Below are positions 21,075 to 29,238 of a stretch of 64,000 bases of DNA, piece by piece. The stretch comes from Caulobacter sp. (GTDB taxonomy: Bacteria > Pseudomonadota > Alphaproteobacteria > Caulobacterales > Caulobacteraceae). The first letter of the stretch is position 1. Every line of letters begins with the position of its first letter. The translations under genes were made by a program, and so were the position numbers. The notes under the pieces are model-generated. The model was not told the origin of the DNA. It did not search any database and worked only from the letters and a program-made list of their open reading frames with translations. The stretch is from the NCBI GenBank assembly GCA_030678995.1, contig JAUXTQ010000024.1:1-64000 (forward strand), given 5' to 3'.

Positions 21075-21099
21075 AACGCTTCGTGAGGCCTCAGGTTCC
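21075..21099 (-). promoter_or_regulatory. EcfG/SigT promoter motif of the entericidin gene
   Basis: Minus strand GGAAC, 16 bases, CGTT: an exact match to the EcfG consensus. The -35 element lies just inside the 3' end of phyK (stop codon at 21091-21093). Confidence 0.85.
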
Positions 21100-22794
21100 G
21101 TCGCCGGGCGCTTCCGGCATCGGAAAGACCAGCCGGGCCGTCAGCCCCCCGATGGCGTTCGGCTCCAGGCTCATATGCCCGCGCAACTGGCGGGCGAAGG
21201 CGGTCATCAGGGTCCGCCCCACGCCGCCCTTGGTCGCCGCGTCCGGCGGTGACGGATTGCCCCCGCCGTCGTCGGCGATGGCCAGTTCCGCCTCGCCGTC
21301 GCGCAGGGTGAAGTCGACCGTCAGGGCGCCGCCCTTGCCCTGGAGCGCGTGCTTCTGGGCATTGGTCACCGCCTCGACGGCGAACAGGGCCAGCGGGGCC
21401 AGCTTGTCCGGGTCGATCGACAGGGGGTCGGCCCGCACCTCGGTGCGGATGTGCTCTCCGCCGCTTTCGCCGGCGAGCAACTGGCCGGTGAGGTCTTCAA
21501 GGAAGGGCCGCAGGTCCACGTGCTTGATGTCCGGGCCCTGGTAGAGGGCGCGGTAGATCAGGGCCAGGGCGGTGATCCGCTGCCGCGTGTCGCTCATGGC
21601 CACCCGGGCGGCCGGGTCGCTCAGCGCCCGCTCCTGCATGCTCAGCAGGGAGCTGATGACCTGCAGGTTGTTCTTCACCCGGTGATGGATCTCGCGCATC
21701 AGCACGTCCTTCTGGTCCAGGTTTTCGTGCAGGGTGGCGTCGCGGGCGACAATGGTGGCGGCCATGTGATCGAGGGTCTCGGCCAGCTCGCGGATCTCCG
21801 GCGGCGCCCGGTCGGCCTGGACCGGACGGATGGTGAAACGTCCCCGAGCGTAGATGGCGGCGATCCGCTGCAGATAGAGGATCCAGCGCGTCACCCCGCG
21901 GTCGACGGCGAAGAAGATCGCCGCCAACGCCGCGGCGAAGGCGATCAGCGGAAAGACGATGCCGGACAGCGGGTCGAGCCAGGCCGTGGAGAACAGGCCC
22001 GCCGACGGCGCCGACAGCACCACGAACAGCTCGTCACTGACCAGCGGGGCGGCCGAGAAGACCCGCTTCACGCCATACTGGTCGCGGCTGTATCCGAGGA
22101 ACGACCCCCGCGACGCCGCCCGATTGACCCAGCTCTTCGCCGAGCGCGGAAAGGCGCGCGGATCAGTGATGGAGAGATACCGGCCTTGTCGGTCGACGAT
22201 GGCCACCTGGGAGCCCGGCGGCAGCGACCGGTCGGCCAGCTCGGGACGCAGGCTGGCGAGCGGAATGACCGCCGCCAGGACGCTGAAGCCGGTCTGTGGA
22301 TCGATGGACCGGGCCGCGGTGAACAGGGCCGGCTCGGCGGAATAGACCGCGCCCGGCGCGAGGGTCACGACCATCGTCTCGCCCGCCTTCAACCGCAGGA
22401 ACCAGTCCCGACCGCGACGGTCCGGATCAGCCGGAACGCTCTCGGCGGAGCAGGCCACCCGGCCGATGCGGTCGAAGCGGATCAGGTTGGCATAGCCGGG
22501 CAGACGTCGGCGCACGTCGGTCAGACGGCGCGAACAGTCCAGGCCGATGGAGCCGGGTCCCAGGGTTTCGAGCAGGACGGCGGCGGCTTCCATCCGCGCC
22601 TTGGCGGTGGCCGCGCTGCGCTGCGCCGCGGACTGCAAGACGGCCTGCCGGTCGGCGGTCTCTCGCTCATAGGCGCGCAGGGATTGCCCGGCGCCCAGCA
22701 GGAGCACCGGCAGCAACGCCGCGGCAAGGGCGACGCCCAGGCGGACCCTGATCGTGGTCGCGGACCCCCACCGCAACCGCTCGAGGAATCTCAA
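21091..22794 (-). CDS. phyK: Membrane sensor histidine kinase PhyK
   Basis: 567 residues. PhyK phosphorylates PhyR when stress is sensed. Two membrane helices (about 20-36 and 278-297) flank a periplasmic sensor of Cache/dCache look. A HAMP-like linker follows, then a HisKA_2 box REIHHRVKNNLQVISSLL (phospho-His near 371) and an ATP domain with FAVEAVTNAQKHAL and IADDGGG. Start is TTG overlapping the sigT stop (TTGA), so it is translationally coupled to sigT. Same gene order as the Caulobacter phyR / nepR-sigT-phyK locus. Confidence 0.93.
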   Translation of the reverse strand: MRFLERLRWGSATTIRVRLGVALAAALLPVLLLGAGQSLRAYERETADRQAVLQSAAQRSAATAKARMEAAAVLLETLGPGSIGLDCSRRLTDVRRRLPGYANLIRFDRIGRVACSAESVPADPDRRGRDWFLRLKAGETMVVTLAPGAVYSAEPALFTAARSIDPQTGFSVLAAVIPLASLRPELADRSLPPGSQVAIVDRQGRYLSITDPRAFPRSAKSWVNRAASRGSFLGYSRDQYGVKRVFSAAPLVSDELFVVLSAPSAGLFSTAWLDPLSGIVFPLIAFAAALAAIFFAVDRGVTRWILYLQRIAAIYARGRFTIRPVQADRAPPEIRELAETLDHMAATIVARDATLHENLDQKDVLMREIHHRVKNNLQVISSLLSMQERALSDPAARVAMSDTRQRITALALIYRALYQGPDIKHVDLRPFLEDLTGQLLAGESGGEHIRTEVRADPLSIDPDKLAPLALFAVEAVTNAQKHALQGKGGALTVDFTLRDGEAELAIADDGGGNPSPPDAATKGGVGRTLMTAFARQLRGHMSLEPNAIGGLTARLVFPMPEAPGDGT

Positions 22795-23402
22795 CGGACG
22801 GCGCTCAGCCGCTCCGCGTCGGCCAGGATCGATCCCATCGCATCGCCGGCGTCGCCGCCGTCGCGATCGTAGGCGCCGGTCTCCAGGATGCCCTGCAGCG
22901 CCCGCCGCGCACGGCTGACACGGCTCTTCACCGTGCCGACCGCGCAGCCGCAGATATCGGCGGCCTCTTCGTAGGCGAAGCCGCCGGCGCCGACCAGGAT
23001 CAGGGCTTCCCGCTGTTCATCGGGCAGCATGCACATGGCCAGGCGAAGCTCGTCCAGGGCGATGGGGGACATCGGATCGTCAACGGCCACGAGCGTGCGC
23101 TCGGCGGCCTCCTGGTCGAGCTGGATCGAGCGCCAGGAGCGGCGCTTGTCCGAGTAGAACTGGTTGCGCAGGATCATGAAGGTCCAGGCCTTCATATTGG
23201 TGCCCAGCTGGAAGCTGGCCCGGGCGTCCCAGGCCTTGATCATGGCGTCCTGCGCCAGGTCGTCGGCGGCGGTCGCGTTGCCGGTCAGGGTGCGGGCGAA
23301 GGCGCGCAGGTGGGGGATCAGAGTCACCAGCTCGCGCTGGAAGACCTTGTCACGAGCGGCCCCCTCCAGGGGCATGGCGACGGTTTCAGAGGCGGCCGTC
23401 AT
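22791..23402 (-). CDS. sigT: EcfG-type sigma factor SigT (general stress response)
   Basis: 203 residues from MTAASETVAMPLEGAARD; the longer track start runs through nepR and is rejected. ECF sigma factor of the EcfG group. Region 2 reads FARTLTGNATAADDLAQDAMIKAWDARASFQ and MKAWTFMILRNQFYSDKRR. Region 4 reads LPDEQREALILVGAGGFAYEEAADICGCAVGTVKSRVSRARRAL. It is held by NepR until PhyR-P sequesters NepR, then transcribes GGAAC-N16/17-CGTT promoters. The stop of nepR is one base before its ATG. Confidence 0.96.
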   Translation of the reverse strand: MTAASETVAMPLEGAARDKVFQRELVTLIPHLRAFARTLTGNATAADDLAQDAMIKAWDARASFQLGTNMKAWTFMILRNQFYSDKRRSWRSIQLDQEAAERTLVAVDDPMSPIALDELRLAMCMLPDEQREALILVGAGGFAYEEAADICGCAVGTVKSRVSRARRALQGILETGAYDRDGGDAGDAMGSILADAERLSAVR

Positions 23403-23403
23403 C

Positions 23404-23589
23404 TCAGCCTTCTCCGGATTTGCGATCCGCCTGACGAAGGATGTCCAGAAACTCGTCCGGGACAGGCTCGTTGACGACCTCGTCAAACATCTGTCGCAGC
23501 TTTACGCCAATCGCGCGTTGCCGAAGCCGCGCTTCATCAAGCGGGGCCGTTCCCTTGCGCCGTTCATCCATTGGCATCTGGTCGATCAT
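23404..23589 (-). CDS. nepR: Anti-sigma factor NepR
   Basis: 61 residues from MIDQMPMDERRKG; starts at the internal Met residues (MPMDERR or MDERR) are also possible. NepR binds SigT in unstressed cells. The family helices are clear: LRQRAIGVKLRQMFDEVVNEPVPDEFLDILRQ, with the conserved VPDEFLDIL. The track lists a 198-residue ORF whose N-terminal part is non-coding promoter DNA. First gene of nepR-sigT-phyK and preceded by an EcfG motif, giving positive autoregulation. Confidence 0.93.
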   Translation of the reverse strand: MIDQMPMDERRKGTAPLDEARLRQRAIGVKLRQMFDEVVNEPVPDEFLDILRQADRKSGEG

Positions 23590-23644
23590 GCTATCGGCGT
23601 GGCGATGCGCCCGCCCCCTCTTGGAACTATGACTTCGGCCGTTC

Positions 23645-23817: not shown

Positions 23818-24609
23818 ATGAGTCTTCTTGCACGTCTGGCGCCGCATCTGCCTTACATGCGCCGATACGCGCGGGCCCTGACAGGGAGCCAGACCACCGG
23901 GGACCAGTATGTGCGCGTGGCGCTCGAAGCCCTGGCGGCCGGTGAGAAGTCCCTCGACAACCGACTGTCGCCTCGGGTGGCGCTCTATCATGTGTTCCAC
24001 GCCATCTGGTGCACCTCCGGGGCCCAGCTGGAAGACCGCGCGCCCGGCGCCGGCTCGGACGCCAGCCAGCGGCTGATGCGGATCGCGCCGCGCTCACGCC
24101 AGGCCTTCCTGCTCACCGCGCTCGAGGGGTTTACCCCCAGCGAGGCGGCGCAGATTCTCGATACCGACTTCCCGGATGTGGAGCGGTTGATCGGCCAGGC
24201 CCAGACTGAAATCGACGCCGAACTGGCCACCGACGTCCTGATCATCGAGGATGAGCCGGTGATCGCCGCCGACATCGAGGCCCTGGTTCGTGAACTGGGT
24301 CACGCGGTGGTGGACATCGCCGCGACCCGCACCGAAGCCGTCGAGGCCGTGGCCCGCAAGGCGCCGGGCCTGGTCCTGGCCGACATCCAGCTGGCCGACG
24401 GCTCGTCGGGCATCGACGCGGTCAAGGACATCCTCGGCCACTATGATGTGCCGGTGATCTTCATCACCGCCTTCCCGGAGCGCCTGCTGACCGGCGAGCG
24501 GCCGGAGCCGACCTTCCTGATCACCAAGCCTTTCCAGCCGGAGACGGTGAAGGCGGCGATCGGCCAGGCCCTGTTCTTCCATCCCGGCCGGACCGCCAAG
24601 GCGGCCTAA
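23818..24609 (+). CDS. phyR: Anti-anti-sigma response regulator PhyR
   Basis: 263 residues from MSLLARLAPHLPYMRRYARAL after a GGGAGGGG site; the track start 36 bases upstream is rejected. Residues 1-130 mimic an ECF sigma factor (IAPRSRQAFLLTALEGFTPSEAAQIL). Residues 138-255 form a receiver with LIIEDEP (142), the phospho-Asp near 189 in LVLADIQLADG and Lys 237 in ITKPF. On phosphorylation the sigma-like part binds NepR and frees SigT. Divergent from nepR; ends by overlapping a convergent small gene by 4 bases. Confidence 0.96.
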   Translation: MSLLARLAPHLPYMRRYARALTGSQTTGDQYVRVALEALAAGEKSLDNRLSPRVALYHVFHAIWCTSGAQLEDRAPGAGSDASQRLMRIAPRSRQAFLLTALEGFTPSEAAQILDTDFPDVERLIGQAQTEIDAELATDVLIIEDEPVIAADIEALVRELGHAVVDIAATRTEAVEAVARKAPGLVLADIQLADGSSGIDAVKDILGHYDVPVIFITAFPERLLTGERPEPTFLITKPFQPETVKAAIGQALFFHPGRTAKAA

Positions 24610-24848
24610 CCGGCCGGGTCGCCGGCGGCCCGAACCTCGGCGGCCGTCGGCGTGCTCGTGGCGTCGGCCTGCGCCAGGTCCCCGGCGCGGAAGGCCCAGC
24701 TGCCGAACAGCGCGACCACGGCCAGAACGGTCGAGGCCACCAGCACCCAAAACATATGCCGGCCCCAGCGCCCCTGGCGGGCGTCAGTCGCCTCAATAAC
24801 CTGCGCGTCCGGGTGGGCGCGGACGAAACGACGGAAGTTGATGGCCAT
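24606..24848 (-). CDS. Small single-pass membrane protein
   Basis: 80 residues from MAINFRRFVRAHPDAQVIE, preceded by GAGGAGG. One membrane helix (about 33-52: MFWVLVASTVLAVVALFGSW) with a basic N-terminal side, followed by an Ala/Thr-rich tail. No recognised family. An EcfG promoter motif lies 40-65 bases upstream, so it is probably a member of the general stress regulon. The longer track ORF (24606-25061) reads through the promoter and is rejected. Convergent with phyR, 4-base overlap. Confidence 0.72.
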   Translation of the reverse strand: MAINFRRFVRAHPDAQVIEATDARQGRWGRHMFWVLVASTVLAVVALFGSWAFRAGDLAQADATSTPTAAEVRAAGDPAG

Positions 24849-24887
24849 GTAGCCGCCTCCTCTGTCTGGTGAATCCAGCGCCTTTTG

Positions 24888-24913
24888 AACGTCCCGCCAG
24901 GGGTCGTTGTTCC
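24888..24913 (-). promoter_or_regulatory. EcfG promoter motif of the small membrane protein
   Basis: Minus strand GGAAC, 17 bases, CGTT, exact consensus. Divergent from the gsrN promoter motif, whose -35 element begins 47 bases away. Confidence 0.83.
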
Positions 24914-24960
24914 GACTCCCGCGTCGGGCGAAAAAAGTTCGAACTTTTTCGCGTTTGTCC

Positions 24961-24986
24961 GGAACCGATTTTCGGGAAGCGACGTT
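24961..24986 (+). promoter_or_regulatory. EcfG promoter motif of the candidate sRNA gsrN
   Basis: Plus strand GGAAC, 17 bases, CGTT. No credible protein-coding gene follows on this strand, but a structured RNA with a terminator does. Confidence 0.85.
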
Positions 24987-24992
24987 TAAGGA

Positions 24993-25114
24993 TTGCGGAG
25001 GCGGCGACGCCCCCCCCGACTTGAGGCTGGTGAGAGCCAGCCAGTCGCCTCCGCACCCCAATCTCGATGATGCGAAACTCTCGGGGCGGATCTTCGGATC
25101 CGCCCCGAATTTCG
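24993..25114 (+). ncRNA. gsrN: Candidate general-stress small RNA GsrN
   Basis: Non-coding segment of about 120 bases that starts 6-9 bases after an EcfG -10 element. Seen directly: a closing stem TGCGGAGGCG / CGCCTCCGCA (24994-25003 with 25046-25055), an inner hairpin GGCTGG / CCAGCC, an exposed run of eight C (25010-25017) between them, and a terminator TCGGGGCGGATC-TTCG-GATCCGCCCCGA at 25081-25108 followed by ATTTCGTT. Caulobacter GsrN is a SigT-dependent sRNA with a C-rich 5' loop that pairs with target mRNAs such as katG; the promoter, C loop and place beside the GSR genes fit. Exact ends are estimated. The 97-codon ORF over it is not credible. Confidence 0.75.
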
Positions 25115-25116
25115 TT
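25081..25116 (+). terminator. Terminator of gsrN
   Basis: Perfect 12-bp stem with a UUCG tetraloop, followed by ATTTCGTT. The T-tract is weak, but the stem is very stable. Confidence 0.82.
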
Positions 25117-25129
25117 CAGGTCGGGAGCG

Positions 25130-25573
25130 TCAGCGCGGCGACAGGCGGAAGGTCACGTCGGCACGGCGGCGCAGGGGCCGGTCAGCCCCCGAGGCCGTGA
25201 CGGCGCCGGCTTCGCCCGCGGCGCCGATCTGGAAATTGATAGTGGCGAAGCCCAGTCGCTGGACCGCGCCGCGGACGGCCTCGGCCCGCTTGCGGGAGAG
25301 CGTCATGTTCACGCCGGGATCGCCGACTGAGTCGGCCAGACCCAGCACATCGACCGCGCCCAGGGTGCACCCCCGGGCCATGTCGCCCGCACCCTTGAGC
25401 ACGGCGCGCGCCTCGCGGGTGATGGCCACGGAATCCCGTTCGAAGTAGATCGAGACGGTCCTATCCTGACAGGGGTTGGCGACCGCCGCCTTGCGGAAGC
25501 CCGAAACCGTGCCACAACCGCTCAAAGCCAGCGCCGTAACACCCAGCAACACCAAGCCTGACAGACCGCGCAT
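25130..25573 (-). CDS. OmpA-domain lipoprotein
   Basis: 147 residues from MRGLSGLVLLGVTALALSGC, a lipoprotein signal with lipobox LALSGC. The C-terminal 110 residues resemble an OmpA/MotB peptidoglycan-binding domain: VSIYFERDSVAITREARAVL, VDVLGLADSVGDPGVNMTLSRKRAEAVRGAV and a RRADVTF end. It probably anchors the outer membrane to the wall. An EcfG motif begins 55 bases upstream, so stress induction is inferred. ATG 25573 is preferred to the track's TTG 25579. Confidence 0.85.
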   Translation of the reverse strand: MRGLSGLVLLGVTALALSGCGTVSGFRKAAVANPCQDRTVSIYFERDSVAITREARAVLKGAGDMARGCTLGAVDVLGLADSVGDPGVNMTLSRKRAEAVRGAVQRLGFATINFQIGAAGEAGAVTASGADRPLRRRADVTFRLSPR

Positions 25574-25627
25574 GACCAACCCTCACCCCGATGTTCGACG
25601 GCGGCCCGGTCGGCCAACCGCGGTGGC

Positions 25628-28410: not shown

Positions 28411-28801
28411 GGTCTTGCGACGGCTTGTCCATGAAGGCGCGGATCACGGCGGCGGCCAGCTGCGGATTGCGCAGGGCATAGACGCCCGCGGCAACCGCCG
28501 CGCTCGCCGACAGCAGGGGGTGGTCGCGGACCAGACCCATGATGGTCTCGACCATCGAGGCGTCGGCGGCGACGGGGGCGGCCCTGGCCTTGCGGTCGCC
28601 CTCGGCCTTGCGCGCGGCGGCGAAGCCGGCGATCGCCACGGCCAGCGCCGATACGCCGGAGATGATCGCCGCCGCCCCCGCCGTCCCGACGTACGGCTGG
28701 ATGAAGGCGAACAGAGCGAAAAAGGCGGAAAAGACGCCGACGGCCGCGGCCGCCGCGATCGCGGCGCCGGCCGCCAGGGCCATCAGCGTCCGCTCCATCA
28801 T
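28403..28801 (-). CDS. Membrane protein, holin/DUF1469-like
   Basis: 132 residues from MMERTLMALAAGAAIAAAAAVG. Two strong hydrophobic segments (about 7-36 and 40-62) and a third near 95-108, with an Arg/Lys-rich loop between. It sits directly behind a DUF883-type gene (TAATGATG junction), an arrangement that often pairs YqjD/ElaB-like proteins with YqjE-like membrane proteins. The name rests on topology and context rather than a clear motif. Probably transcribed from the EcfG motif at 29213. Confidence 0.62.
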   Translation of the reverse strand: MMERTLMALAAGAAIAAAAAVGVFSAFFALFAFIQPYVGTAGAAAIISGVSALAVAIAGFAAARKAEGDRKARAAPVAADASMVETIMGLVRDHPLLSASAAVAAGVYALRNPQLAAAVIRAFMDKPSQDRN

Positions 28802-29148
28802 TAGCGGCGGTCGCCGCGGCTGGCGAGCAGAAGCCCGATCAGAACGCCCACGCCGACGCCGGCCAGGGTGGCGGCCACGGGTCGTTCCTTGACCCTCTCG
28901 ACGACGTAACGCTGGGCTTCGTCGAGCTGCTGCCCGGCCGTGTCGGCATAGGCGCGGCTCTGCGCCCGCAGGGTTTCCATGCCTTCGCGGACGGCCGTTT
29001 CGGTGCGGTGGGCCGCCCCGGTGAGGCGTTCACGGGCCTGGTCGGCGGCATCGACGAAGCTGCGCTCGGCGTGCTTGGCGGCGCTCTTGAGGGCCGTCTT
29101 GGCCTGATCGGCTTCGGTCGATGCGGGCGTGGTTGCGTTGGTGGACAT
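28801..29148 (-). CDS. DUF883 (YqjD/ElaB-like) membrane-anchored protein
   Basis: 115 residues from MSTNATTPASTEADQAKTAL. A long amphipathic, Ala-rich helical region with many Glu/Arg/Gln (residues 15-85) leads to a C-terminal membrane helix VAATLAGVGVGVLIGLLLASR, the DUF883 plan. E. coli relatives YqjD and ElaB attach ribosomes to the inner membrane in stationary phase and are stress-sigma controlled. An exact EcfG motif begins 65 bases upstream. The track start at 29214 overlaps that motif and is rejected. Confidence 0.84.
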   Translation of the reverse strand: MSTNATTPASTEADQAKTALKSAAKHAERSFVDAADQARERLTGAAHRTETAVREGMETLRAQSRAYADTAGQQLDEAQRYVVERVKERPVAATLAGVGVGVLIGLLLASRGDRR

Positions 29149-29212
29149 GACAGGCTCCAGGTTCGCGGGCGCGCCGGGTCCGGCGGCCCTCCGTTCAGGG
29201 GGACTACCGGTC

Positions 29213-29238
29213 AACGCGATGTCGCGAGATCGAGTTCC
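29213..29238 (-). promoter_or_regulatory. EcfG promoter motif of the DUF883 operon
   Basis: Minus strand GGAAC, 17 bases, CGTT, exact consensus, 65 bases before the start codon. Confidence 0.83.

Follow-up and report, generated by a model that had tools for sequence, protein, structure and literature searches.

The window analyzed here, a stretch of 64,000 nucleotides (64 kb) of Caulobacter sp. DNA, contains a GSR locus in which phyK, sigT, nepR, and phyR are followed by an ORF for a small membrane protein, the small RNA gene gsrN, and a gene for an OmpA-family lipoprotein (Table 1). When the full 64 kb were scanned against Rfam, RF01529 (CC3552) was the only match, at 24997–25105, with 91.1 bits and an E value of 2.1e-13. 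The gathering cut-off of this family is 50 bits, and the alignment spans model positions 1–106, i.e., the whole model. This is the covariance search that an earlier note on this DNA, made from the sequence alone, had suggested as a check on its reading of the locus as GsrN. The same note held that annotation based on ORFs alone misses the gene, which is true but a weak point, as a routine scan with Rfam picks it up immediately. A search of the source genome found just one copy. The Rfam match, the promoter of SigT type, the order of the genes, the loop, and the RNA end numbering of C. crescentus together identify the locus, on sequence grounds, as gsrN; it encodes the known small RNA GsrN and is here a further member of RF01529, as had been proposed.

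Table 1. Features of the gsrN locus, in window coordinates
Feature	Position	Strand	Remarks
phyK, sensor kinase	21091–22794	−	NF051872, 760 bits
sigT/ecfG, sigma factor	22791–23402	−	Sigma70_r2 and r4_2; adjoins nepR
nepR, anti-SigT factor	23404–23592	−	NF051865, 120 bits
phyR, anti-anti-sigma response regulator	23818–24609	+	NF006623, 372.8 bits
Small membrane protein ORF, 80 aa	24606–24848	−	Between phyR and gsrN
Second EcfG-like site	24888–24913	−	Points away from gsrN, toward the 80-aa membrane ORF
EcfG/SigT promoter GGAAC-N17-CGTT	24961–24986	+	GGAAC 24961–24965, 17-nt spacer, CGTT 24983–24986
gsrN (RF01529/CC3552) RNA	24995–25115	+	+1 placed at G24995 and end just past the terminator stem, both inferred
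Stem 1, 5′ arm	24995–25005	+	Pairs with 25044–25054; 11-bp outer stem
C-rich loop CCCCCCCCGACTTGA	25010–25024	+	Core of C6 or more, then GAC: predicted mRNA-pairing site
Stem 2, 7-bp hairpin within stem 1	25025–25042	+	25025–25031 with 25036–25042
Stem 1, 3′ arm	25044–25054	+	Equivalent of the C. crescentus cleavage site (C53/T54) at 25049/25050
Terminator stem, 12 bp, UUCG loop	25081–25108	+	From folding; stem covaries among homologs
OmpA-family lipoprotein gene	25130–25579	−	Convergent with gsrN

The earlier note correctly placed the RNA between phyR and the lipoprotein gene but omitted the minus-strand membrane ORF. This ORF matched no Pfam or NCBIfam family. It neighbors gsrN in 99 of 134 loci, and a minus-strand EcfG-like site accompanies it in 27 of those 99, versus 5% of control windows. 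Because the ORF has an EcfG-like site of its own, it probably forms a divergent stress-regulated pair with gsrN and belongs to the stress regulon. Among homologous loci long enough to show their neighbors, most share the order phyK-sigT-nepR-phyR-membrane ORF-gsrN-OmpA lipoprotein-diacylglycerol kinase (dagK)-phosphoesterase. In two loci (L002 and L035), gsrN lies away from phyR yet still adjoins the diacylglycerol kinase gene, which suggests that it is the phyR side of the locus that has relocated.

Promoter, fold and conservation of the RNA

The EcfG promoter described in the earlier note is present and ends 8 nt before the inferred +1 of gsrN. A GGAAC-N-GTT motif occupies the equivalent place in 137 of 143 distinct gsrN homologs. 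Its spacer is 16 nt long in most of these and 17 nt in 12, including the Caulobacter sp. window, and in every motif-bearing homolog (137/137) GTT lies 8 or 9 nt from the inferred +1. In the window, GGAAC-N17-CGTT occurs 4 times, against an expectation of 0.40. Another copy, at 29213–29238 on the minus strand, lies at the upstream end of an ORF of 137 aa (28801–29214, minus strand).

The RNA folds into two nested stems, separated by a short linker from the terminator stem, with a z score of −5.3 relative to dinucleotide shuffles. These stems, including the 12-bp terminator stem with its UUCG loop, had been read directly from the letters, and both folding and covariation among 58 homologs recover them. 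The U tract of the terminator is weak (AUUUCGUU). The C8 run at 25010–25017 is one of two runs of at least seven C within the window. It had been described as unpaired; this holds for the centroid structure, in which all eight C are free, but the minimum-energy fold places two of the eight within a weak 3-bp hairpin.

In the 58-sequence alignment, standard pairs fill 96.3% of cells, and both partners have changed in 17 of 28 pairs. None of 500 shuffles reached any of the five covariation measures (0/500), and sliding the partners by 1 to 3 columns leaves a pairing of only 33%–53%. Stem 1 is paired in 100% of cells, with one pair changed on both sides and four more varying between G-C and G-U, and stem 2 is paired in 99.5%, with 6 of its 7 pairs changed on both sides. 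The invariance of the loop in this alignment is partly forced, as many of the loci were fetched with the exact loop pattern. An independent set is provided by 29 weaker-scoring homologs that were fetched by the covariance model alone; these keep a run of at least six C, followed by GAC in nearly all, while the TTGAG part drifts. One outcome named at the outset as speaking against the RNA was that relatives would have lost the C tract and the stems; this was looked for, and both are conserved instead. Taking the homologs together, nearly all have at least six C, and GAC is missing from only a few. The length of the C run among homologs ranges from 6 to 14, the run of 14 occurring in the loop of a single genome (L281, from G154). 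In one locus (L305, from G214) the run is interrupted, CCCCACCCCCC, and a similar interrupted loop, CCCTCCCC, is found in L264 (from G017), where an EcfG-like promoter is present.

Open frames do run across the feature, a 97-aa ORF with a TTG start at 24907–25200 and a 151-aa minus-strand ORF at 24606–25061, and a short protein gene with the RNA features as by-products might be read from them. However, the C-run lengths of the homologs fall in every residue class modulo 3, so these ORFs are not credible, in agreement with the earlier note. In addition, the stems carry compensatory base changes, and the minus-strand frame most likely begins at ATG 24848, clear of gsrN. The overlapping ORFs were rejected as genes on the strength of the frame-breaking changes in the C run and the compensatory changes in the stems, and a protein gene in place of the RNA is extremely improbable. 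The stem-loops could also be a mere bidirectional terminator for the lipoprotein gene, with the EcfG-like site there by chance, and the 12-bp stem does sit between two convergent genes. Against this stand the family match over all 106 positions, the conservation of the loop, and a promoter whose distance is fixed in 137 of 143 homologs. Because the upstream half is conserved too, a terminator alone is already ruled out, and we give this explanation next to no weight.

Correspondence with the published GsrN

GsrN is the product of ccna_R0081 in C. crescentus (Tien, Fiebig and Crosson, 2018, PMC5869019) and is known from Caulobacter, Brevundimonas, and Phenylobacterium (Tien 2018, PMC5869019). 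The identity of RF01529 with this RNA was tested by published position numbers rather than by direct sequence comparison. Locus L002, from a genome of the same genus (G001), has a loop of six C and no phyR alongside. Numbered from a +1 at GCGAAGG, it has its six C at 16–21 and carries C53, T54, and T64, which coincide exactly with the mapped RNA ends (Tien 2018, PMC5869019). The katG leader of G001 contains GTCGGGG, the complement of seven loop nucleotides including four of the six C; a pairing of the katG leader with seven loop nucleotides, using four of six C, has been described for C. crescentus (PMC5869019). In C. crescentus, exceptionally, gsrN is located outside the GSR locus (PMC5869019), and the placement of L002 away from phyR fits this exception. 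The C. crescentus numbering (C53/T54/T64, PMC5869019), transferred via L002, gives the window RNA a +1 at G24995, rather than near 24993 as first supposed, and a cleavage-site equivalent at 25049/25050.

Of 249 Caulobacteraceae genomes sampled, 176 yielded the gsrN family, and it was found in none of the other sampled families of the order. Named records carrying the loop belong to Caulobacter, Phenylobacterium, and Brevundimonas. Apparent second copies in one genus, g13 (G186, G189, G191, and G226), are false positives that have neither promoter nor C run and score 35–37 bits. Our own covariance model (R1, built from 58 homologs), applied with stricter filters to 385 class-wide alphaproteobacterial genomes, found no member outside Caulobacteraceae. 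The GsrN-like RNAs proposed for Rhizobiaceae (Tien 2018, PMC5869019) have an EcfG promoter, a position near the GSR locus, and an exposed C-rich 5′ loop, but this same search does not support their homology with GsrN.

katG and the targets of GsrN

In C. crescentus, katG, encoding a catalase-peroxidase, is the one proven GsrN target; osmotic survival does not require katG, the osmotic-protection target of GsrN is undefined, and many mRNAs co-purify with the RNA (PMC5869019). The source genome, which is 89.5% complete so that absence is not certain, yielded neither katG (Pfam PF00141) nor a haem catalase (PF00199), and neither was found by the same families in G027, G028, and G036, which are 98%–100% complete. 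Across the Caulobacteraceae sample, katG went undetected in 41 of the 176 gsrN-bearing genomes, the source genome among them. Both genes were found in 135 genomes, gsrN only in these 41, katG only in 30, and neither in 43, an association between the two genes (Fisher p = 1e-7, uncorrected for relatedness). The loop is intact in the inspected loci of katG-less genomes (L005, L008, L010, and L027). Given that katG is undetected in this many genomes, GsrN is presumably retained there for other targets, possibly an osmotic-stress target. In G003 and G193, katG was not found and a catalase is present. Neither PF00141 nor PF00199 was found in G000, G027, G028, G036, and G267.

The earlier note had proposed purine-rich leaders, including those of the surrounding island, as possible targets. 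This is unsupported: GTCGGGG is not enriched in the 64-kb window, with 22 occurrences observed against 30.6 expected. In six genomes, the perfect 10-nt complement of the loop, AAGTCGGGGG, is not in excess of its reversed control, and no common leader site was seen. For the katG leaders of 27 relatives, loop pairing (duplex energy and longest complement) does not rise above shuffles, in a test of low power in which the C. crescentus-type leader itself reaches a p of about 0.05. For katG genes of the MDAK/MDG type, which come from related species, the best loop complement mostly lies at −37 to −47, a placement that, judged from the sequences, would be consistent with pairing at the 5′ end of the mRNA.

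By analogy with C. crescentus, PhyR would release SigT from NepR under stress, and SigT would then transcribe a GsrN of ∼120 nt. This RNA would probably be cut near 25049/25050, leaving the C-rich loop on a stable 5′ fragment; C. crescentus GsrN is cleaved to a stable 5′ isoform of 51–54 nt (PMC5869019). The loop (C8 then GAC) may, again as in C. crescentus, pair with G-rich mRNA stretches of the GUCGGGG type, and such pairing would alter the translation or stability of the target mRNAs. Because katG appears to be absent from the source genome, the functional targets would have to be others. Which mRNAs these are in the source organism is a matter of speculation, with an osmotic-stress target as the leading candidate. 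What this analysis itself shows is the sequence and its structure with covarying pairs, the placement of the promoter, the order of the genes, the distribution of the family, and the lack of a detectable katG. We assign a probability of roughly 0.95 to the reading as a whole, a SigT-driven GsrN that is cut to a 5′ fragment and uses its C-rich loop to pair with G-rich mRNAs other than katG.

A katG-less lineage could instead keep the RNA mainly for a role that does not involve pairing, e.g., titration of Hfq or of a ribonuclease. The failure to find katG and haem catalase in the source genome, G027, G028, and G036, and the lack of enriched target sites in the window and in six genomes, would agree with such a role. 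However, the unpaired loop is the best-conserved part of the RNA and stays intact in katG-less genomes, as expected for a pairing site, and the many mRNAs recovered together with C. crescentus GsrN (PMC5869019) likewise argue for pairing. We consider a non-pairing role unlikely.

GsrN may work free of katG in a sizeable part of Caulobacteraceae, the source organism among them, with its loop intact and a different main set of targets, probably the osmotic arm; we offer this tentatively, at somewhat less than even odds. In that case katG would be one GsrN target among several and not the core one, and the katG-less genomes that carry gsrN would allow the peroxide role to be told apart from the others, offering a handle on the osmotic-protection target. 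GsrN itself is already known, and its presence mainly confirms that the raw sequence was read correctly. Its apparent retention without katG, as judged by family searches, is the sole point that a specialist might not expect.

Comparison with other RNAs

The window RNA and C. crescentus GsrN (ccna_R0081; RF01529) have in common the SigT-type promoter, the nested stems, the inner hairpin, the terminator, a C-rich loop followed by GAC, and a length of about 100–120 nt. They differ in the C run (C6 in C. crescentus, C8 in the window) and in the promoter spacer (16 versus 17 nt). The C. crescentus gsrN is located apart from the GSR locus in a genome that has katG, whereas the window gsrN is at the GSR locus of a genome in which katG was not detected. 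RepG of Helicobacter works alike, with a C/U-rich loop that pairs with a homopolymeric G stretch in an mRNA leader (cited in PMC5869019), but on comparison by literature description only it is unrelated in sequence, host, and regulation. The homologs reported from Brevundimonas and Phenylobacterium (Tien 2018, Figure 9) belong to the same family by Rfam score and likewise lie beside phyR; the window RNA differs from them only in detail, namely the length of the C run, the loop of the inner hairpin, and the terminator.
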